Source: Bacteroidetes bacterium MedPE-SWsnd-G2
GTDB lineage: Bacteria > Bacteroidota > Bacteroidia > Flavobacteriales > Flavobacteriaceae
Length of the DNA stretch: 64,000 bases
Assembly: GCA_001874335.1 (NCBI GenBank)
Contig: MPDE01000006.1
Span: 124,001 to 188,000, forward strand
Direction of reading: 5' to 3'
Under the pieces are notes generated by a model. That model worked only from the letters and a program-made list of their open reading frames with translations. It did not search any database and was not told the origin of the DNA. Of this stretch, positions 19,634 to 30,558 are shown piece by piece (position 1 is the stretch's first letter; every line of letters begins with the position of its first letter). Made by a program: the position numbers and the translations under genes.

Positions 19634-20115
19634 ATTGTGTAATCTGTAAAACCGAAAGTTTTCTATTGAATTTTTATCATGCTGATTTCCAGTGGTTTTG
19701 ATGAAAGTCGCTGAAAATCAGTTAAATAAAGATGTAGTTTTTTGATTACATATTAAGTAGGTTTAGGTTTTGTTTTAAGAATATTTTGACTTTTATTTTA
19801 TTTTCCAAGTTTGAATTTAGGTATGCATAATTAGTTTAAATCAAGAGAAAAAAAGAGACGTTAATTTTACCAATTTTATCCAGAAGATGCTTGATAATTA
19901 AGAGCTTAAATTTATGGTGTAACATTACAGTGTTTTTTGCTACAAATATTATGTAGCAATTGATACATCTAAAAAAGGAATCAAATTAACTACGTTTTCT
20001 GGAAGAAGTAGCAAAAATTATGCTTCAATAGCAGATTTTACTTTCATAACCAACAATTTTTCTCGAAATTGCTAAGCATTAAAATACGTTAAACTCACTA
20101 AATACCACTTATAAT
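19634..20115. other. long AT-rich gap before the unknown operon
   Basis: No supported gene was found here. It holds an 8-bp inverted repeat (TTGCTACA at 19937-19944 and TGTAGCAA at 19952-19959, 7-base loop). Just across it runs an open frame of about 50 codons without an ATG, closed by TAA near 20073. That frame could be a chance opening or a gene remnant. The length and the hairpin are compatible with a regulatory leader. Confidence 0.45.
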
Positions 20116-21462
20116 ATGTCTGATGATTTTGATTTATTAGAAACTAATTCAAACGAAAAACAGGAGCAAGTAGATGTCAATTGGGGTCAAGCTATCGACC
20201 AGATGAAATCTAAACTGTCGCAAGAAGATGATCCTGAGTCTCGTCAAAAAATATTAAACGCAACATTAGATGATGTTGTTCATATGGCAGAAAAAGATCG
20301 AACTACGCTTTTAGATGCTATTAAAGACCTTACTGACTATCAGGATGAGGTTGGAATTATATTTGAAAAATTTTCATCTCTAAATGCTGATGAGCAGAAA
20401 ATAATTGACGATGCTCAAAAACGCTTAGAACGTGCCAAAATGGAGTTGGAAGATGCTAATAATGTTCCTGATACTTGGTGGAAAAACCTTTGGGGTAGAA
20501 AAAGTAAAATTAAGAAGGCAGAAGAAGAATTAAATACTGCACAAGGTGTTCGAGATGCGGCAGATAATAAGGCTAAAGCTTTGTTTCAAGAGCGTATTGA
20601 AAGCGCAGATGTTCAAACTTTATTAAGTGAGTTGTCTTTTAAAAGTCAGGCGGCGGTTTCAAGACTTAAAAATAGGGAAGTTGAGATTAAAGAGGTAGAG
20701 GATAAATTGCAAGTTGCAATTGTTGAAGCTACGAAAAATCATACTAAAGCCTTAGAAAAGAAAAAGGAAGTTGAAGATAAGCTAGAGGAGCAATATGCTT
20801 TACTGAAACAAGCAAGACAAGAATTAGATGAAATTGTTGACAAACAGTCTTCTGAGTATGCGCAAGCTATTGGTAAAGTTACTGGTTTAGAGCAAAAAGT
20901 AGAAGAACTTGAAGGATTGAAAAATGCTTACACCACTTTGGCAGCAAGTAAAGATAGTTTTGTACATAAACATAATTTAACCATTAAGGTTTTAACTTCT
21001 TTAAGAAGTAATTTACAAACGCATAGAGCAAAGTTAAAATCGGATACTGAAGAACGATTAAAATATTATGACGGATATGTGGTGGCTTTAAAGGCAAGAA
21101 CAGATCAAGAATTTGCTGCGATATTAGAACACCTTGGAGTAAAAACAGATGAGCATATCGGTGAAACCTTGGCAGCAATGCATACAGCGAGTGCAAGAGC
21201 AAGACAAGACATGATGGATAATATTCCGGTTCACGAAAAAGTGATGCAGGGTGTGTATAGTAGTTATGCCGAAGCGTTGCAGGAAATAAGAACTAAAGAT
21301 GTTGATATTCAGAAAAACTTCGCAGAGCGTTATGGTTTTGATATGAAAGAGATTTTCGAGGATTATTATAAAGCAGATGCTACTGCACCTAAAAATGATG
21401 AGCCAAGCGACGAACCAGATGCACCAGCACCATCAAATGATGAAGACGATCTTTTGTCTTAA
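20116..21462 (+). CDS. long coiled-coil protein of unknown function (operon gene 1)
   Basis: A 448-aa acidic, almost wholly helical protein. Residues about 95-300 are dense heptad coiled coil, interrupted near residue 115-135 by an aromatic segment PDTWWKNLWGRKSK. The C-terminal part (residues 300-420) is helical but not classic coiled coil, followed by a disordered tail rich in aspartate, glutamate and proline. No signal peptide or membrane helix is visible. The overall shape recalls TelA-type tellurite-resistance proteins, but I see no convincing family match. It is the first of seven closely spaced genes that include an AAA ATPase, so a substrate, scaffold or filament role is possible. Confidence 0.8.
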   Translation: MSDDFDLLETNSNEKQEQVDVNWGQAIDQMKSKLSQEDDPESRQKILNATLDDVVHMAEKDRTTLLDAIKDLTDYQDEVGIIFEKFSSLNADEQKIIDDAQKRLERAKMELEDANNVPDTWWKNLWGRKSKIKKAEEELNTAQGVRDAADNKAKALFQERIESADVQTLLSELSFKSQAAVSRLKNREVEIKEVEDKLQVAIVEATKNHTKALEKKKEVEDKLEEQYALLKQARQELDEIVDKQSSEYAQAIGKVTGLEQKVEELEGLKNAYTTLAASKDSFVHKHNLTIKVLTSLRSNLQTHRAKLKSDTEERLKYYDGYVVALKARTDQEFAAILEHLGVKTDEHIGETLAAMHTASARARQDMMDNIPVHEKVMQGVYSSYAEALQEIRTKDVDIQKNFAERYGFDMKEIFEDYYKADATAPKNDEPSDEPDAPAPSNDEDDLLS

Positions 21463-21488
21463 TATATAACTATAACCACTAATTAATT

Positions 21489-22559
21489 ATGAACGTTAAC
21501 CATATTGTAACACCATTAGATTCTGCAGTTCTTGACTCTAAGGAACAATATGTGTTTTATCACAAAATGGTAGATTTTGTGCTAAAGCAGTTAAATCTTA
21601 AAATGGAGGCACTTGAAATATGTAGTGCTCAGGAAATTACATTTTTTAAACAATATTGTGATTTAATACTGTATTCAATTGAAGCCATGCGTATAAAATA
21701 CATGTATGACGAAGAAGAGGATATGAAAATAGATTTAACAGAGTCAGGGTTTCCTAATTATTTAGAATTTAGGTATTTGTTTAATGATTTAGCCTTACGT
21801 GAAAATTACTTGAATAGGCTAACAGATGTTAATGCGTTAAAGGAAGAGTTTTTAGATATTTTATTGCGTCAAAAGAAGTCAATTCCAAGGCCAAAATTAT
21901 ATCAAGCATCTTCAATAATTTATTACACATCTGTTGAGCAGAAATATATATTTAACCGATTTGTTCAGGGTAAGGTTGTTAAATCTGAAGATGCTTCGCA
22001 AGGGGAATATTTAGTGAGTTGGAGCTTTTTTGATGTCGCTCTAAACAGGCCTTTTGTTTGCTATTTGTATTTTGACTATGACGGGAAAAATGTAGACGAT
22101 TGTAAAACTCAATTGTACGACGTTTTAAAACAAAGTGCAGATAGAAAGATGGCATTAGACACTATGGCTTATGGTATAGATAGAAAGCTGACAAAGCTTG
22201 AGCCAAAACGAATTAAACGTATTGACTTGGGGCCAATTCATAATGTATTTGCTAAAGATGAAAATGTAATTACACATCAATTATTGAAGAGTATTTTGAA
22301 TAAAGAAGTACCCTTAGAATCTTTTGCTGTATCGATGAGTATCGATGAAGTGGCGTCTACAGATACGTTTAAGGAAGGTGGTTTTTTCTCAGGTCAGATT
22401 CTTCAAAAGTGGGGAGAAGTGAATAAGAAACCATTAGTTTTTGCACCCCATCGTATGATTCAGTTATTGTATAATAAATGTCCAGAGGCTTTAAATAAAT
22501 TGGCAAAACCTCCTTTTGAAATACCACGTTTAAATATTGAAAAATTGAAAACGATTTAA
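21489..22559 (+). CDS. hypothetical protein (operon gene 2)
   Basis: A 356-aa soluble protein that I do not recognise. The N-terminal half is helical (ending about residue 130, LKEEFLDILLRQKKSIPRPK). The second half contains beta-rich stretches (GEYLVSWSFFDVALNRPFVCYLYFDYDG) and a basic KLEPKRIKRIDLGPIHN linker. There is no signal peptide, membrane helix or known catalytic motif. It starts 26 bases after the coiled-coil gene and 23 bases before a small membrane gene. Its conserved position among proteins of the same unknown system is the only functional clue. Confidence 0.8.
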   Translation: MNVNHIVTPLDSAVLDSKEQYVFYHKMVDFVLKQLNLKMEALEICSAQEITFFKQYCDLILYSIEAMRIKYMYDEEEDMKIDLTESGFPNYLEFRYLFNDLALRENYLNRLTDVNALKEEFLDILLRQKKSIPRPKLYQASSIIYYTSVEQKYIFNRFVQGKVVKSEDASQGEYLVSWSFFDVALNRPFVCYLYFDYDGKNVDDCKTQLYDVLKQSADRKMALDTMAYGIDRKLTKLEPKRIKRIDLGPIHNVFAKDENVITHQLLKSILNKEVPLESFAVSMSIDEVASTDTFKEGGFFSGQILQKWGEVNKKPLVFAPHRMIQLLYNKCPEALNKLAKPPFEIPRLNIEKLKTI

Positions 22560-22582
22560 ACTGATTTTCCCTAGATCAAAGT

Positions 22583-23017
22583 ATGAAATTTAGCTATCAA
22601 CCACCTTTAAAATTTCTTTTTTTAGGTTTACTTTTTATTTTGCTATCAATGGGTAGTATGCTGTTATGGAGTTATAATACTCTAATTTTAAAATTTATTG
22701 GAGTAATGAGTTTTGTGCTGTTATTCACTTTTGGTGTTATGGCGGTTACACACTATTTTAAACATAAAAAGCTAATGTTTGTAGAATTGAATTCTAAAGG
22801 TATTCAAGTACCAATTGAGCATAATTCAAAACAGCAATTATTAACTTATAATGAAATAACAGATGTAGATGAATTTAATCAATTAAGGTCTAAAATGATA
22901 GCCATTGAGTGGCGAGAAACCTATTATTATCTCAATGCTAATTGGCTTCCAAAGGGGGCGCATGAAAAGATATTAGTCGAATTAATACAACAAACATCAC
23001 AACAACCAAATAGATAA
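22583..23017 (+). CDS. small two-helix membrane protein (operon gene 3)
   Basis: A 144-aa protein with two adjacent transmembrane helices (about residues 11-30 and 34-54) and a cytoplasm-type domain of about 85 residues. The sequence LLTYNEITDVDEFNQLRSKMIAIEWRETYYYLNANWLP looks like a small PH-like or bPH beta domain, but that is only an impression. It starts 23 bases after gene 2 and ends 8 bases before the AAA ATPase gene. It may anchor the ATPase at the membrane. Confidence 0.8.
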   Translation: MKFSYQPPLKFLFLGLLFILLSMGSMLLWSYNTLILKFIGVMSFVLLFTFGVMAVTHYFKHKKLMFVELNSKGIQVPIEHNSKQQLLTYNEITDVDEFNQLRSKMIAIEWRETYYYLNANWLPKGAHEKILVELIQQTSQQPNR

Positions 23018-23025
23018 AACAATAC

Positions 23026-25011
23026 ATGGAGCACAATTCAACTTTTCCTATAAAACAATCAGAGCTTAATTCATTAAGAGACGAGGCCTCATCATATTTA
23101 AAAAGTGTGCAATGGGAGCAAGGTCTTAGAGCAAGAAACAAGGATAAAGATGCTAAAGACGATTCGATTTTATTGTATTTATCTCGAGCAAAAAATGGAG
23201 GAAGCAATTCAGAAATAACAACGGTTTCCAAATCTATTTTGGGGTTGAAGAAAAAATTACTTCCAGATTCTGTGGCGTTGCCAGTGCGGTTGAATGAAAC
23301 CTTATTTGCGGTACAAGAAGGACTAACCATAGGGATTTGGATAAAGGACAATTACTATGACGCATCTGGTCTTTCAGCCTTAAACGAAAGAAAATCGGCT
23401 TTAGATAATAGTGGAAAAAGAGAATTTGAAAGTAAGCAGCATACGGCTACTGCTTTTATGTTATTTTCTTTTGCTTATCGTGTGTTACATCAACTTAAGC
23501 CAATGGCTTCTGATGATTTGAGTGTAATGAAAAATAAATTTGCAGGTATTCCTGAGGTGTCCTTTATGTCTCCATTAAAAGGCATAGCATGCAGTTTGTA
23601 TTATTATGATAAGTATTTAAATATACCCGAAATCATAACATCTGATCAAGATGTAGTCGATTTTTCAGTGGTGTATTTTGAGGCGTTAATAGATGAAATT
23701 CAGCTAAGAAAAGGGGCTTTAGAGTATACCGAATCTATCACTGATAGAACCTATAAATTAGAGAAAACTGAATTTGCAATTTCGGGTTGGAATAATGTTT
23801 TTGAAGGAAATGCTAAGAGTGTAGAATTTAACCGTATTAATTTTGAGCAAATTGTTGGTAATAGAGATGCAAAGCACTTTTCCAGACGACTTACAGAGCG
23901 ACTTTTAAGTTATGATTTTACAGAAAAGAAAAATCCATTTCAAGAATTAGGAGGATTTATGCCGGTGTTTATGGGATATGGGATTCCAGGTACAGGAAAA
24001 AGTATGCTTATTGCAGCAATAGCAACACGACTAAAAGATTATTCTGAACAATTAGATATTCCATTTTTGTTTCATCCTATGCCAGATACCTTAATTAGTA
24101 CGTTTCAAGGTGGATCGGCAGAGAAAATGGTCGAGTGGATGAAGCCAATGCAAGATCCCAGTAAGTTGATATTTGCGCCAATTGATGACGCAGAAAACAA
24201 TTTGCAAGAACGCACAACTCAAGGCGTTTCTGCAGGGGTAAAAGAAGTGATAGGTGTCTTTTTAAGATATACTGAAGGAGCTTATGCCGTTAATTATGGT
24301 AATAGTTCTATAGGGTTATTCACGAATTTACCTGAGATGTTAGATAAGGCAGTGATTTCAAGAGTACAAGGCCGATTTAAAATTGATGGAGCGCAATCTC
24401 AAAATGACTTTTTAGACCAGGATTATTTATGGTGGAGTGCTTTAGAAAAGCGTTTGCCAGATTTCGTAAATATGCAAGATCCTGATGCGTATAAGTATTT
24501 GGCAGATCAAGGATTGGCAAAAGATATGGGGGATATTTTGAAGCAAATTGAAAAACCTTCAGAAGGTCGTGTTATGGAAATATATGAGAAAGTAGAGCAA
24601 AAATATCCAACCAATCAACATCAGTTTTTTGCACAGTTATACAAGGATATGCAAACGGTGTTTCCGTTCTTTTCTTCTCGTGACGTTAGAAATATTCAAT
24701 CTGCAATATCTCTACGATTAACAGATTTTGATTTAGAACAAGATTGGTTCGAAAACCCTGAAATTTACTTTAAAAAGGATTATGAAACCAAGTTTAATAT
24801 GTTGCAAGAATTAATGAAATCTAATATGAAAGGACTTAACTTTTCTGAGATTAGAAGACAAGAAGTAATTAGGTATTTAGATAATGTTGCAACCATTGCA
24901 GATACCGACTTTAAACGTAAAGTAGATTCAAGAATAGGACAAATGAAAGTTGATATTTCGGCTCGAAAGTATTTTGATCAAAACCCTTCAACAGACCATT
25001 CAATTTATTAA
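23026..25011 (+). CDS. AAA-family ATPase of unknown function (operon gene 4)
   Basis: A 661-aa protein with one classic AAA module in the middle and long N- and C-terminal extensions. Walker A is GIPGTGKS (residues 319-326). The Walker B region LIFAPIDDAEN has Asp387-Asp388 where Asp-Glu is usual. Sensor 1 lies in FTNLPE near residue 434, and the following ISRVQGRF resembles the RxxGRFD region of classic AAA proteins such as p97, Vps4 and FtsH. The N-terminal 280 residues are not recognisable. Position in a run of unknown membrane and coiled-coil genes suggests a remodelling ATPase at the membrane. Start at ATG 23026 follows gene 3 by 8 bases. Confidence 0.9.
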   Translation: MEHNSTFPIKQSELNSLRDEASSYLKSVQWEQGLRARNKDKDAKDDSILLYLSRAKNGGSNSEITTVSKSILGLKKKLLPDSVALPVRLNETLFAVQEGLTIGIWIKDNYYDASGLSALNERKSALDNSGKREFESKQHTATAFMLFSFAYRVLHQLKPMASDDLSVMKNKFAGIPEVSFMSPLKGIACSLYYYDKYLNIPEIITSDQDVVDFSVVYFEALIDEIQLRKGALEYTESITDRTYKLEKTEFAISGWNNVFEGNAKSVEFNRINFEQIVGNRDAKHFSRRLTERLLSYDFTEKKNPFQELGGFMPVFMGYGIPGTGKSMLIAAIATRLKDYSEQLDIPFLFHPMPDTLISTFQGGSAEKMVEWMKPMQDPSKLIFAPIDDAENNLQERTTQGVSAGVKEVIGVFLRYTEGAYAVNYGNSSIGLFTNLPEMLDKAVISRVQGRFKIDGAQSQNDFLDQDYLWWSALEKRLPDFVNMQDPDAYKYLADQGLAKDMGDILKQIEKPSEGRVMEIYEKVEQKYPTNQHQFFAQLYKDMQTVFPFFSSRDVRNIQSAISLRLTDFDLEQDWFENPEIYFKKDYETKFNMLQELMKSNMKGLNFSEIRRQEVIRYLDNVATIADTDFKRKVDSRIGQMKVDISARKYFDQNPSTDHSIY

Positions 25012-25016
25012 TACTT

Positions 25017-26252
25017 ATGGAGAAGTTAATTGAAGCAAATTTATATAGAAGTCAGCTAATTACCGTTAATGGGAAATTGGTTGAACGCTATAATACTTGT
25101 TTACAAACTTTAGGCTTTAAACAAACTCAATTAAGCTCTTTCTCTATTGATGGCTTAGGATGGAGCCCGGAAATTGCTGAGGAACGTCAAAATATGCATT
25201 ATCTTAATAATGGAGATGCCAATCCGCATGCCATTTTAATTACTCCAAGACAAAAAGATATTCCGGTATATATGCCGTTTCATTCTTTTGATAAAGAAAT
25301 GATGAATTTTGTATTTGAAACTTACGAAAGTCAAATAAAAGATATTACTCGAGATCATGCCATTTGTGTTGATTTTGACCAAGATATAGATACGTTTTAT
25401 GAACCCTTAGATATTCTTAAATACCAAGAAATATCAATAGGATTTCGAGTGACAAATAATATAGTTTTTCATCAGAAAGAGCAACGAGATCTTATTAACG
25501 TATTTAGGCAAGGCCATAATTTTATTGATGAATCAACTCAGTCAAAGTTATTGGAATCTGCTAAAAATTATGGCGATTTGAGACATCGAGACTTTATCAT
25601 GAGCGCTATTGCCTTCGATGTAGAATCTTTCTATTCTAAGGCGTTTGGCGGTGTTTATGTGCTACGGGATTTTATTTCTCCAATATTAGTGTTTGCCGAT
25701 AAGGAAAATTATAATGAGGCTATTAAAGATGTAGTGCATGATGTGTTGATTTATCATATTAATCAACCAGAGCTTGTTACCAAGTTAAGAGATCATATGA
25801 TTTTGGAGTGTGATCTTAGAAAAGAAGTCAAAACGGAGCGATATAATAGAATTAAAAAGTTTGAGCTTTACCAGCGTCTAGATGACGTTGAACATTCTTA
25901 TTTAGAAATTCTTGATGAAAAAGTGCTTTTTAAAAGTTATCTCAATAAATTAAGTATTGAAGATAGAAAGAAAGTAATGTGTGTTGAACGTTACCTGGAG
26001 AAATTAGAAACGAGCAATACCTATAAAATTGCCGATTTGGTAGATGAGAGCATGTATTTTGCCTTACATAAACCGCATTCTTCGTTAACTAATGCTCAGA
26101 AGGATTTAATTTGGAAATTATTAGTGAATATTTCGGCTAAAGATATTTTGTATCTTTTTTGGTATGATAAATCTAAATTTCACGACGCCTTTGTAACATG
26201 GAAGCCTACTTTTAAAGATTGGGCAGTGCAAACAATAAGTAACAATATCTAA
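25017..26252 (+). CDS. hypothetical protein (operon gene 5)
   Basis: A 411-aa soluble, mainly helical protein with no recognised domain. It starts 5 bases after the ATPase gene, the tightest spacing in the operon, which suggests a direct partner. Mixed alpha/beta segments appear in the first 130 residues (NPHAILITPRQKDIPVYMPF). Long helices dominate the rest (DHMILECDLRKEVKTERYNRIKKFELYQRL). No signal peptide, membrane helix or catalytic motif is visible. Confidence 0.8.
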   Translation: MEKLIEANLYRSQLITVNGKLVERYNTCLQTLGFKQTQLSSFSIDGLGWSPEIAEERQNMHYLNNGDANPHAILITPRQKDIPVYMPFHSFDKEMMNFVFETYESQIKDITRDHAICVDFDQDIDTFYEPLDILKYQEISIGFRVTNNIVFHQKEQRDLINVFRQGHNFIDESTQSKLLESAKNYGDLRHRDFIMSAIAFDVESFYSKAFGGVYVLRDFISPILVFADKENYNEAIKDVVHDVLIYHINQPELVTKLRDHMILECDLRKEVKTERYNRIKKFELYQRLDDVEHSYLEILDEKVLFKSYLNKLSIEDRKKVMCVERYLEKLETSNTYKIADLVDESMYFALHKPHSSLTNAQKDLIWKLLVNISAKDILYLFWYDKSKFHDAFVTWKPTFKDWAVQTISNNI

Positions 26253-26293
26253 TTTATAGATACTTATAATATAGATATAAAAAATAATCAATT

Positions 26294-26818
26294 ATGACAC
26301 TTGAACTCATCATTTTTATTGCCTCAATATTGTTTGGAGTACTTCTGTATTGGCGTGAATCTCAAAATAATGGATTGTACAGAAGTATAAATAGAATTTT
26401 AAATTCGAAAGAATTACAAATGTCAGCCGACGATAAAACTGGATTTGTTTACAAGCAGAAACTTTTGATGCGAGTGGTATATATTGGTTTTCTGTTTTTG
26501 GGCGCAATAATAATTTTACAATTTGTGGTCCCAATAGGGGTGAGTTATAATTCTGTTTCTGTATTTGTATCGCTAATATCAGGAACATTAATCGGGACTT
26601 ATATTGCTAATTTTGTGTTGAAATCGGGTAAGGTGATTGAAGAAAATTCAGATCATTTAGAGGATGTTGTTGAGCAGACTGTAGATAAGGTTTCGGGTTT
26701 TGTTGAAGATTTAAGACCTGAAAACAAATTACCAAACCAAGTGCCAGAAAAAGAGGAAAAGCCAGAAGCTGAAAAGAAATCGGCAAGAGAGCGATTAAAA
26801 GATAAAGGATTAATGTAA
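26294..26818 (+). CDS. three-helix membrane protein with charged tail (operon gene 6)
   Basis: A 174-aa protein with hydrophobic helices at about residues 3-20, 55-75 and 83-105. A cytoplasmic tail rich in glutamate and lysine follows (EEKPEAEKKSARERL near the end). The middle loop between helices 1 and 2 is basic. No known family is recognised. It lies 41 bases after gene 5 and 34 before gene 7, within the same run. Confidence 0.8.
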   Translation: MTLELIIFIASILFGVLLYWRESQNNGLYRSINRILNSKELQMSADDKTGFVYKQKLLMRVVYIGFLFLGAIIILQFVVPIGVSYNSVSVFVSLISGTLIGTYIANFVLKSGKVIEENSDHLEDVVEQTVDKVSGFVEDLRPENKLPNQVPEKEEKPEAEKKSARERLKDKGLM

Positions 26819-26852
26819 ATCTGTCTTATTAAGAAATTTTGGAATAAAACGT

Positions 26853-28532
26853 ATGTGGGAAAAAATTAAGCAAAACAAAAGTATTTCTATTCTTTTAGGA
26901 ATCGTATTCTTGGTTGTGATATTTATTTTAAGAGATGATTATCAACCAGCTTTACTCTTTTTGAGAAAGTATGCCTTTATTCTATTGGTTTGCATTGCGA
27001 TATTGTATTTGGGACTTAGAAAGTTTCGAAAAACAGCGAGTACGGGTCAACGTGCCCTAATACTTGGTCTGATAGTTCTTGTTTTAGGCGGAATTTATTA
27101 TGTAGGTTGGCAAGTGAAAATGTATGCATTTATGCAATCTTATAATGTGTTTCAGGATTTGAATAAGGTAGAAATACATGAATTACCATTAACTCAAAAC
27201 GAAAGAATTCAACCCTTACGAAACATTTTCTCAATGGCTAATGAATCGGTAGGAGAAACCAAAGATGTATCCTTACCACACTTAGTGCGAGTGGACAATG
27301 AGAATAAATGGACCATGGCAATTCAACCTTCAGAGAATTATGTGTGGCAGAGAATAAATGATAATACAGAAGAAGTGTTTTCGGTTTCTAGTACAACGCC
27401 ATTTCCTCGGTTCTCAAGTGAGAATAGAATACCCGTTACATTTTCTATAGGGGAATCTCTAAAGTTTAGCAGAAACACCTACAATGCAGTGGTTCAGAGA
27501 TTTAATTTCTTTGAGCTATTTACAATGGAGCCAAGTGATACCTTTTATATGAAAAATGACAAAGGAAGCTGGGTTGAAGTGGTGAGCATAATAAAATGGA
27601 AAGGATTCTTTTTTCCTTATCCTACCTTTGGTGGCGTTTATATCATTGAAAATGGAGCACATGATTTTAGTGATTATGTCGAACGTTTGTTTATAGGTAA
27701 AGGAACCTACGTGAGTCCAGAGGATATGAAAAATCACCCTTTTTTGACTCGTCAAAACACATTGGCAGAAGAAGTCTCTCGATTACAAGCAGAATCTCTT
27801 AAGTTTTTAGGAGGATTTTCAGATCCACTACCTTGGAATATGCAAACAGCTGTTAAAATTCCAGACTTACCAGACGACCAAAACGAACAGCCTTTTGTAA
27901 CAGATTTTAATTTTCAAGGAAACTCTCATAATGCCTATAGCGGATTGTATCATTGGTTTGGGTTAGAACCAGTAGGTGAGGAGCGCACAAGTTTAAGTTT
28001 TAGTGTTTTTATTCCAGCCGATGGTACAGATAAACTTTATTATTATGACCATGCCTCGAAGAAGCAAGGTTACGCCGGTGTATCAGCCATGCCTTTAAAA
28101 GTTATCGAATCAAGAAAAGAGTATGATTGGTCGGTAAATAAGCCGGTAGAATTTAGACCTTATATTAAAGATATTGCGGGAAGAAAACGCTTATTTTTTT
28201 TAGGGACCATTTCAGCTGTGAGAGATGATTCGGCCAACTTTGATGGCTCAGCGACACCAGATTTGGCATTGGTTGATAGTGAATATAGAGATGTTGTTTG
28301 GATTGATGTGAAGCATCCGTCAACTTGGGATAAAGCAGTTTATGACCAATTAGGAGAAGCTTGGCGTTCTAGTGAAAATATAGAAGAATATTTTGTGGAA
28401 GAAACCAAACAGATTGATGCTTCAGAAGTGTTAGCTGATAGCATAAAAATCATCCCTGAAAAAGATGAAAAGCAAATTGCAATTGAGCGCTTAGAACGAC
28501 AATTGGATTCGCTGAAAAAAGTAAATAATTAG
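26853..28532 (+). CDS. large membrane protein with extracytoplasmic domain (operon gene 7)
   Basis: A 559-aa protein. Three hydrophobic helices occupy roughly residues 12-28, 38-56 and 67-87. About 470 residues then follow without further membrane helices, probably in the periplasm, with many beta-strand and aromatic segments (FNFFELFTMEPSDTFYM; GNSHNAYSGLYHWFGL). It ends in a short coiled coil (KQIAIERLERQLDSLKK). No family is recognised. It is the last gene of the unknown operon and converges on the hutG gene across 14 bases, with no clear terminator hairpin between them. Confidence 0.8.
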   Translation: MWEKIKQNKSISILLGIVFLVVIFILRDDYQPALLFLRKYAFILLVCIAILYLGLRKFRKTASTGQRALILGLIVLVLGGIYYVGWQVKMYAFMQSYNVFQDLNKVEIHELPLTQNERIQPLRNIFSMANESVGETKDVSLPHLVRVDNENKWTMAIQPSENYVWQRINDNTEEVFSVSSTTPFPRFSSENRIPVTFSIGESLKFSRNTYNAVVQRFNFFELFTMEPSDTFYMKNDKGSWVEVVSIIKWKGFFFPYPTFGGVYIIENGAHDFSDYVERLFIGKGTYVSPEDMKNHPFLTRQNTLAEEVSRLQAESLKFLGGFSDPLPWNMQTAVKIPDLPDDQNEQPFVTDFNFQGNSHNAYSGLYHWFGLEPVGEERTSLSFSVFIPADGTDKLYYYDHASKKQGYAGVSAMPLKVIESRKEYDWSVNKPVEFRPYIKDIAGRKRLFFLGTISAVRDDSANFDGSATPDLALVDSEYRDVVWIDVKHPSTWDKAVYDQLGEAWRSSENIEEYFVEETKQIDASEVLADSIKIIPEKDEKQIAIERLERQLDSLKKVNN

Positions 28533-29670: not shown

Positions 29671-30558
29671 ATGGAGGATACCAACAGCAAAAGCAAAACT
29701 TTAAAAATTGTATTGGGAGTTTTAGTAGTTGTATTATTGGGTGTAGGTTTTTACACTGCAAAATTGTACAATGAAAAAAAGGAAACAGAAGCTACTCTTG
29801 TTAGAGAAAAGCAAGAAGTAATGAAAGACCTTGACATCATGGCCAAGCAATATGATGAAGCAATTAGTGAAAACGATGTTGCTAACGAAAATTTAATAGA
29901 AGCAAGAGCTCGTATCCAAGAATTAATGGATTCATTAAAAATATCTCAAAATAGTGTAAATAGCTTATGGAGATATAAAAAGAAATATATGGCTTTGCAA
30001 GAAGAGATGGATGCTCTACTTGAAGAAAATGATAGGTTAAAAACTGAGAATACAGATTTGGCGATATCTTTAGATAGCATGTATATTGATTTAGAAGAAC
30101 GTAATAAATACACCGATTCATTACTTGTTCAAAACACAGAATTGGCAACAATTGTTGAAGATGCATCAAGTCTTCAAGCTGTTGGCTTAAGAGGATTAGG
30201 GGTTATTGAGCGTAACTCAGGAAAGTTAATCCCAACAGAAAGAGCAAGGCGTTCAAGTAAAATTAGAATTTGTTATACAGTTGCTAAAAACACCTTGTCT
30301 CAAGAAGGAGATAAAGAGCTTTATGTTCAAGTTATAGATCCAAATAACAATGTTTTAGGAGCAAATGAGCAAATTCAATTTGAGGATGAAATCTTAAACT
30401 ACAGTGTGATTAGTAAATTTAATTACGAAAACAAAAACTTAGATATTTGCGAGTTTATCGGTAAGACAAACAACGAGAAGTTTGAACCAGGGCGTTATGT
30501 TGTAAGTGTTTATAACTCTAAGCATAAGGTATCTTCTACCGAGTTTATCTTAAAGTAA
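29671..30558 (+). CDS. membrane-anchored coiled-coil protein of unknown function
   Basis: A 295-aa protein with one N-terminal membrane helix (LKIVLGVLVVVLLGVGFYTAKLY). A long coiled coil runs from about residue 35 to 170, and a C-terminal beta-rich domain of about 120 residues follows (SSKIRICYTVAKNTLS; GRYVVSVYNSKHKV). The arrangement suggests a periplasmic rod ending in a globular head. It is a type seen in flavobacteria without assigned function. It sits between two minus-strand hut genes, with a shared terminator after it. Confidence 0.85.
   Translation: MEDTNSKSKTLKIVLGVLVVVLLGVGFYTAKLYNEKKETEATLVREKQEVMKDLDIMAKQYDEAISENDVANENLIEARARIQELMDSLKISQNSVNSLWRYKKKYMALQEEMDALLEENDRLKTENTDLAISLDSMYIDLEERNKYTDSLLVQNTELATIVEDASSLQAVGLRGLGVIERNSGKLIPTERARRSSKIRICYTVAKNTLSQEGDKELYVQVIDPNNNVLGANEQIQFEDEILNYSVISKFNYENKNLDICEFIGKTNNEKFEPGRYVVSVYNSKHKVSSTEFILK

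Follow-up and report, generated by a model that had tools for sequence, protein, structure and literature searches.

The stretch of DNA considered here, called the window below, comprises 64,000 nucleotides (64 kb) from Bacteroidetes bacterium MedPE-SWsnd-G2, a member of the Flavobacteriaceae, and lies on contig C16 of a genome of 3.0 Mb. The candidate in question is a run of seven open reading frames (ORFs) at positions 20116-28532, which I will refer to as g1 through g7, built around an ATPase of the classic AAA type. A preliminary description of the window, made from the letters alone, had reported seven same-strand genes with gaps of 5 to 41 bp, and the ORF coordinates bear this out: all seven lie on the forward strand, and the ORF listing gives the gaps from g1 to g7 as 26, 23, 8, 5, 41, and 34 bp. 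GC content is steady over the operon (0.33-0.34). The genes, and the smaller features within and before them, are as follows.

20062-20073, forward strand: element upstream of g1, consensus AACGAAATTGCT, form AACGAAATTGCTT, 54 bp before the g1 start codon; the window copy matches at 10 of 12 positions.
20116-21462, forward strand: g1, 448 amino acids, predicted all-helical coiled coil; core gene, proposed scaffold or substrate.
21445-21459, forward strand: C-terminal peptide of g1, DDLLS, following a disordered linker.
21489-22559, forward strand: g2, soluble protein of 356 amino acids; core gene.
22583-23017, forward strand: g3, two-helix membrane protein of 144 amino acids, STM3941 family (NF041635); accessory.
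23026-25011, forward strand: g4, classic AAA ATPase of 661 amino acids (PF00004, 6e-9, over the cut-off); core gene.
23977-24384, forward strand: AAA module of g4 (residues 318-453), with Walker A GIPGTGKS, pore loop STFQG, Walker B IDD, sensor Asn434, and Arg446/Arg450.
25017-26252, forward strand: g5, DUF6638 protein of 411 amino acids; core gene.
26294-26818, forward strand: g6, three-helix membrane protein of 174 amino acids; flavobacterial partner.
26780-26815, forward strand: C-terminal peptide of g6, SARERLKDKGLM, following a variable linker.
26853-28532, forward strand: g7, 559 amino acids, with three N-terminal membrane helices; flavobacterial partner.

A simple hydropathy scan finds two membrane segments in g3 and three each in g6 and g7, those of g7 near the N-terminus, in agreement with the topologies proposed earlier, and none in g1, g2, g4, or g5. 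The C-terminal tail of g6 is presumably cytosolic, and g7 has a probable large periplasmic domain. The ATPase had been called the only protein of a recognized family. This holds for families of known function, where g4 alone among the seven passes a Pfam or NCBIfam cut-off, but not for families in general: g5 belongs to DUF6638 (PF20343; 9e-33, 114.2 bits against a cut-off of 27) and g3 to the STM3941 family (41.7 bits against a cut-off of 40), neither of which has an assigned function. The other four proteins (g1, g2, g6, and g7) do not reach Pfam or NCBIfam cut-offs, and their matches to PHROGs are weak, none below 0.007. At E ≤ 1, g2 matches nothing in Pfam, NCBIfam, or PADLOC, and g7 matches DUF4199 (PF13858) at 1.1e-5, with 26.4 bits where the cut-off is 32.3, over the membrane segment 13-100 only.

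The assignment of g4 to the classic AAA ATPases is upheld by its PF00004 match and by a profile of eight members of its family, which matches among PDB relatives VCP, Cdc48, Vps4, Rpt subunits, PCH2, and katanin. The motifs that I take to be Walker A, the pore loop (S-x-[FY]-Q-G), the sensor 1 Asn, and the two arginines of the second region of homology are present in all 101 g4 sequences compared (95 flavobacterial and 6 proteobacterial), and the [FY]QG loop aligns with the Y-Y-G and W-V-G loops of VCP-like ATPases.

Conservation of the operon was assessed in 95 loci, made up of the best 80 of at least 545 relatives of the ATPase (one genome per species) and 15 further regions, with at least two genomes present in both sets (L038/L082 and L047/L114). 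The best 80 come from Flavobacteriaceae or from records labelled Bacteroidia or flavobacterial genera. Of the 95 loci, 88 have the genes in the order g1-g2-g4-g5-g6-g7. Five of the remaining seven end at contig ends, and the other two come from a single genome that has its operon split in two, with about 9.1 kb of other genes standing between g4 and g5. Homologues of g1 are found in 92 loci, with a median identity to the window protein of 85%, the highest of the operon proteins. The corresponding figures are 93 and 64% for g2, 94 and 80% for g4, 93 and 60% for g5, 91 and 54% for g6, and 89 and 74% for g7. For g3, blastp at E ≤ 1e-5 finds no homologue in the 95 loci, and for this reason the seven genes cannot be upheld as a unit: judged from these loci, the conserved flavobacterial unit is one of six genes, with g3 accessory to it.

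The place between g4 and g5 is variable. The two genes are within 100 bp of each other in only 23 of the 92 loci that have both, and in 57 of the 92 a gene of the NUDIX family lies between them (for example, L090:7553-8140). Elsewhere the gap holds RDD genes or unrelated small membrane genes, and in L114 (10962-19060), where about 9 kb lies between g4 and g5, inspection finds NUDIX-like and RDD-like genes and one for a 1,490-residue CheB-like protein. The gap appears to be a favored insertion slot within an otherwise fixed operon. Other gaps of the operon in relatives contain, by inspection, small genes like those for the four-helix proteins of 23S rRNA intervening sequences and for GIY-YIG endonucleases.

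The distribution of the system is patchy within the family. The first sample, of 60 genomes with that of the host included, has the ATPase in 14 of the 37 from the same family; 20 of the 60 pass E ≤ 0.001, six extra genomes (1.6e-4 to 8.1e-4) matching in the AAA region only. A larger sample of the family has the system in 87 of 299 genomes. Phylum-wide, the ATPase is found in 5 of 395 genomes, all five of Flavobacteriaceae, and g7 in 3 of 198, which are the same three that have g5 in that sample and are among the five with g4.

Outside the phylum, tblastn against plasmids finds the ATPase and DUF6638 at most about 2.3 kb apart in 10 records: four from Vibrio, four from Sinorhizobium, one from Shinella, and one from Rhizobium. 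All six of the Vibrio and Rhizobiaceae records examined contain counterparts of g1, g2, g4, and g5 in the same order; in S. meliloti, g4 and g5 are separated by an insertion element. In two Sinorhizobium loci and the Shinella locus, g5 is followed, roughly in the place of g7, by a DUF2333-type protein. On two Vibrio megaplasmids (L049 and L053), the core is followed by a plasmid-borne gene annotated as mfd.

The relationship between the plasmid and flavobacterial genes was assessed with profiles built from alphaproteobacterial and Vibrio sequences only, three to five in each. Among 1,630 ORFs, these match 92 flavobacterial g1, 93 g2, 94 g4, and 93 g5 proteins, together with the four of the window itself; at E ≤ 1 they match no other ORF. 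The proteobacterial profile for g2 gives a match of 2e-23. That for g1 matches the g1 of the window with 49 bits and does not match reversed g1, 200 shuffles of it, four TelA proteins, four PspA proteins, or one other coiled-coil protein. A tblastn search for g1 on plasmids was empty, though homologues are there by blastp and profile, and the chain from flavobacterial to rhizobial g1 is closed by the 35-38% identity between rhizobial and Vibrio g1. By these comparisons, two phyla share a core of four genes (g1, g2, g4, and g5) in a constant order. The preliminary description had proposed a search of gene neighborhoods, and the outcome speaks in its favor because linkage is kept, of six genes in Bacteroidota and of the core in Proteobacteria. 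The recurrence of four parts in order in very distant bacteria is also the reason to regard the operon as real and worth testing.

Two of the flavobacterial proteins end in conserved peptides. All 93 g1 proteins, that of the window counted, end in the acidic di-leucine pattern [DE][DE][LM]L[SGN], and the linker that precedes it, parsed in 91 of them, is variable and rich in Pro, Gly, Glu, and Asp. The g6 proteins end in a basic pattern, [RK]LKDKG plus a few residues, again after a variable linker, in 91 of 92 cases (window counted), the exception having LKNKG. Tethered tail peptides of this sort are typical docking sites and, to judge from their charges, the two could bind to one another or to a shared adaptor.

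The element upstream of g1 was considered in 86 of the 93 g1 genes, seven having been dropped for an unrecognized start or too little upstream sequence. It is matched at 9-12 of its 12 positions in all 86 regions, at 10 or more in 83, and at all 12 in 62. In the 83 it lies 46-58 bp before the ATG, except for one case at 81. In 1.75 Mb there are 66 exact copies of the 11-mer at g1 and two at other places, against an expectation of 1.2; in the window alone, a 14-base pattern allowing two mismatches shows no excess (4 found, 5.0 expected). A T tract and a spaced AT pattern precede the element, which is a possible promoter or leader element. A sigma-54 promoter was considered: the element has ACG and TTGC, but it was set aside because the spacer is 3 bases instead of the 4 in the sigma-54 consensus, and the GG of that consensus is missing. 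The usual Bacteroidota promoter, its pattern taken from general knowledge, was likewise rejected, with 3 of the 86 upstream regions matching as compared with 2.0 in shuffles.

Of the core proteins, g5 gives a confident structural model, with a predicted local distance difference test (pLDDT) of 90.3. Its best Foldseek match in the PDB has an E value of 0.51, its best among viral structures (BFVD) 0.27, and its best VIA match a Z of 5.0 with a root-mean-square deviation (rmsd) of 3.0 over 44 residues, although a family missing from the VIA lists is not thereby proof of a new fold. Profiles of g1, g2, g5, and g7 find nothing better than E 0.04 among PDB sequences. The idea that g2 and g5 are related to each other was rejected on comparison.

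With a probability of about 0.38, I propose that the operon encodes a conserved and undescribed ATP-driven protein-remodelling machine, situated on the cytosolic side of the inner membrane and acting on g1. In this scheme, whose machine function I infer, a hexamer of g4 would thread polypeptide past its pore loop, and g1 would be a scaffold or polymer built up and dismantled by g4; in flavobacteria, the acidic di-leucine peptide of g1 would serve to present it. The remaining core proteins, g2 and g5, would be adaptors linking g1 to g4, while g6, by its basic tail, and g7, by its periplasmic domain, would keep the machine at the membrane and regulate it there. The machine would in this way maintain or reshape the envelope. 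Both the membrane link and the role of g1 as scaffold or substrate, raised in the preliminary description, are plausible, with the tails of g1 and g6 as indirect support. I favor this reading because the gene order is kept in nearly all the loci, the core crosses phyla, and the ATPase motifs and pore loop are maintained; because g1, the most conserved protein, is predicted to be all-helical with a hairpin and because both g1 and g6 carry tails; and because g7 appears only in the three genomes of the phylum sample that have the system, and PspA rarely co-occurs with it.

A number of observations weigh on the other side. The first concerns the ATPase, where Walker B is IDD in all 101 sequences, so that Asp replaces the usual catalytic Glu and the pattern hhhhDE is not found. 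This may mean slow hydrolysis; g4 is otherwise a clear classic AAA member despite the departure in one motif. The second is that the cross-phylum link of g1 is the weakest of the four. From the g1 of the window, blastp reaches Vibrio proteins only. Among 477 ORFs the flavobacterial g1 profile finds two from Vibrio (2e-8 and 1e-7) and one of four rhizobial proteins (0.0018), and a proteobacterial g1 profile, with two first-look candidates only, found nothing in the host's own genome. Furthermore, Vibrio and rhizobial g1 lack the DDLLS tail. The membrane part is not universal either, since tblastn finds no g7 relatives on plasmids and the Vibrio and R. leguminosarum loci contain no DUF2333 relative.

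The structure predicted for g1 is also of limited help to the proposal. The model is all-helical with a long hairpin (166-239/246-326) and its confidence is low (pLDDT 62.7). Foldseek finds nothing at E ≤ 0.001, the best match being an F-BAR protein at 0.026, and VIA lists 50 mixed helical rows, hairpins of similar Z ranging from 13.2 down to 9.9. Vipp1 (6zvs) is among them with Z 10.7, rmsd 3.3, and 132 residues aligned, as is Asgard ESCRT-IIIB (9ftl) with Z 9.9, rmsd 5.6, and 113 aligned. Unrelated hairpins score equally or higher, and the fold matches of g1 are, as far as this model goes, generic helical hairpins. Two identities for g1 were tried and rejected. Against a profile of PspA (4 of 8 strong PspA loci), hhalign gives 21.6 as compared to 22.6 for the reversed control; against TelA, to which the C-terminal half of rhizobial g1 is alike by eye, it gives 13.9 as compared to 16.8 (profile of four proteins, locus L153 left out). 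Finally, the rare co-occurrence with PspA, counted above in favor of the proposal, is a statistic that ignores phylogeny: PspA (E ≤ 1e-15) is present in 23, the system in 87, and both in only one of the 299 family genomes, where 6.7 would be expected (hypergeometric P 0.003). That the system and PspA avoid each other, as if mutually replaceable, is only suggestive.

The main rival to the remodelling machine, as I see it, is a somewhat unlikely one: a quality-control extractor in which g4 pulls misfolded or mislocalized proteins out of the inner membrane, as do Msp1 and FtsH, with g2 and g5 as adaptors, g1 as a structural arm, and g6 and g7 recognizing clients in the membrane and periplasm. A classic AAA protein with a threading-type pore loop would suit this task, as would the presence of two membrane partners in the conserved unit. 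Yet g4 itself lacks a membrane segment, none of the seven proteins has a peptidase match above the Pfam cut-off, and extraction leaves unexplained why g1 should be the most conserved of them all.

It is quite unlikely that the operon serves the assembly or turnover of a structure of the envelope or of polysaccharide, as a machine by which a surface apparatus is built, recycled, or regulated. The large probable periplasmic domain of g7 would fit, and the frequent NUDIX gene in the slot points to sugar nucleotides, one representative being identified by NCBIfam as GDP-mannose pyrophosphatase NudK (235 bits, cut-off 234). However, the operon of the window has no NUDIX gene, and in a simple pattern search the full Nudix box is kept by only 19 of the 57 slot genes, on which account many may be altered. 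The slot, which also accepts RDD and unrelated membrane genes, may be a passive insertion site.

Defence or abortive infection, a function that had been mentioned as possible, is very unlikely, given flanks of metabolic and housekeeping genes, no known-defence partner, and no copy found in phages or viral contigs. The patchy occurrence within the family and the variable accessory genes would be in character for such a system, and PADLOC gives weak matches, with IetA for the g4 module (best 8e-6) and JetC for the g1 coil (0.005; there is a similar match to SMC at 0.008). The IetA match, however, falls within the AAA module (residues 318-460 only), no IetS-type protease was found, and g1 and g4 are strongly conserved. 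Of the ten flanking proteins scanned, those named by Pfam are pirins and proteins of ABC transporter type, the arginase family, amidohydrolase, lyase, carboxyl transferase, and TonB-dependent receptor, while two have no Pfam match. Nine have no PADLOC match at 0.001. The tenth, an ABC-F-like protein with a relative upstream of g1 in 59 of the 95 loci, matches 28 PADLOC models, with mad3 the best at 2.8e-58; I take this as similarity among ABC ATPases. No defence island is visible among the ten. Also near the operon, at 29671-30558, is a gene for a coiled-coil protein of 295 amino acids with an N-terminal membrane-like segment and no Pfam match at 1e-10; its relatives sit downstream of g7 in 40 of the 95 loci.

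Highly improbable, too, is that g1 is a very divergent but true member of PspA/ESCRT-III and the operon a bacterial ESCRT by descent, for the long helical hairpin, the Vipp1 and ESCRT-IIIB rows from VIA, and Vps4 among the relatives of g4 must be set against unrelated hairpins that score as high or higher, the lack of any Snf7 or PspA sequence match in g1, a comparison with four PspA proteins no better than its reversed control, and the lack of an MIT match in g4.

The earlier judgment that the system is undescribed stands: no description of the operon was found, nor any paper on DUF6638 or COG5345, in a literature search whose coverage excludes most subscription journals. The passages available from PMC11237479, PMC10936438, and PMC7159879 describe no operon like g1-g7, and the one paper found for DUF2333 concerns the type VI secretion system (PMC5256989).

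What the remodelling machine would offer is a system with no study found, having a cross-phylum core, two components (g1 and g2) outside recognized families, and a third (g5) without a fold match. In bacteria, stand-alone operons that pair a classic AAA protein with dedicated helical partners are rare. The experimental handles are a single operon, an ATPase active site, two tail peptides, and a conserved upstream element.

It remains to compare the operon with known systems. Membership in ESCRT, PSP, TelA, or IetAS is not supported. With IetAS the likeness is confined to the weak match of the AAA region of g4 to IetA, and there is no protease partner among the seven proteins. TelA (PF05816) is a helical protein of similar length to g1, also present in some Bacteroidota, but g1 has no TelA match at E ≤ 1 and no profile similarity above the reversed control, and the host's own genome contains no TelA. 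DUF2333 (PF10095), a family that like DUF6638 has no assigned function, stands after g5 in three of the four rhizobial loci; g7 has no similarity to it, and a relationship was rejected on a profile comparison probability of 0.2 percent (three DUF2333 sequences) and the lack of a Pfam match at E ≤ 1. DUF6638 (PF20343) is the one family in this group to which a protein of the operon, g5, belongs.

The phage shock protein (PSP) and PspA-AAA operons resemble this one in combining an AAA ATPase, a helical protein, and membrane partners, with a proposed role in the envelope (available passages of PMC11237479). Unlike them, the operon shows no Pfam match to Toastrack, PspC, or band-7 in any of the seven proteins, and neither g1 nor anything in the host's genome matches PspA_IM30 (PF04012).

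In comparison with ESCRT-III and Vps4, the differences are that g4 has no Pfam match at E ≤ 1 to MIT or the Vps4 C-terminal domain and has IDD in Walker B, that g1 has no Pfam match to Snf7, and that g2 and g5 are additional core proteins, of which I know no ESCRT counterpart. The likenesses are a classic AAA ATPase with an aromatic-x-G pore loop encoded beside a conserved helical protein and, in flavobacterial g1, a C-terminal peptide after a disordered linker, as in ESCRT-III proteins. It would be a rather unlikely extension of the remodelling proposal that the operon is an ESCRT analogue of independent origin, found in distant phyla, with g1 as a membrane polymer, Vps4-like recycling, and two adaptors, at least one of a new fold, and that it replaces PspA in marine Flavobacteriaceae. 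On the remodelling proposal itself, g4 would work on g1 much as Vps4 works with ESCRT-III, a parallel of action and not a claim of family membership.

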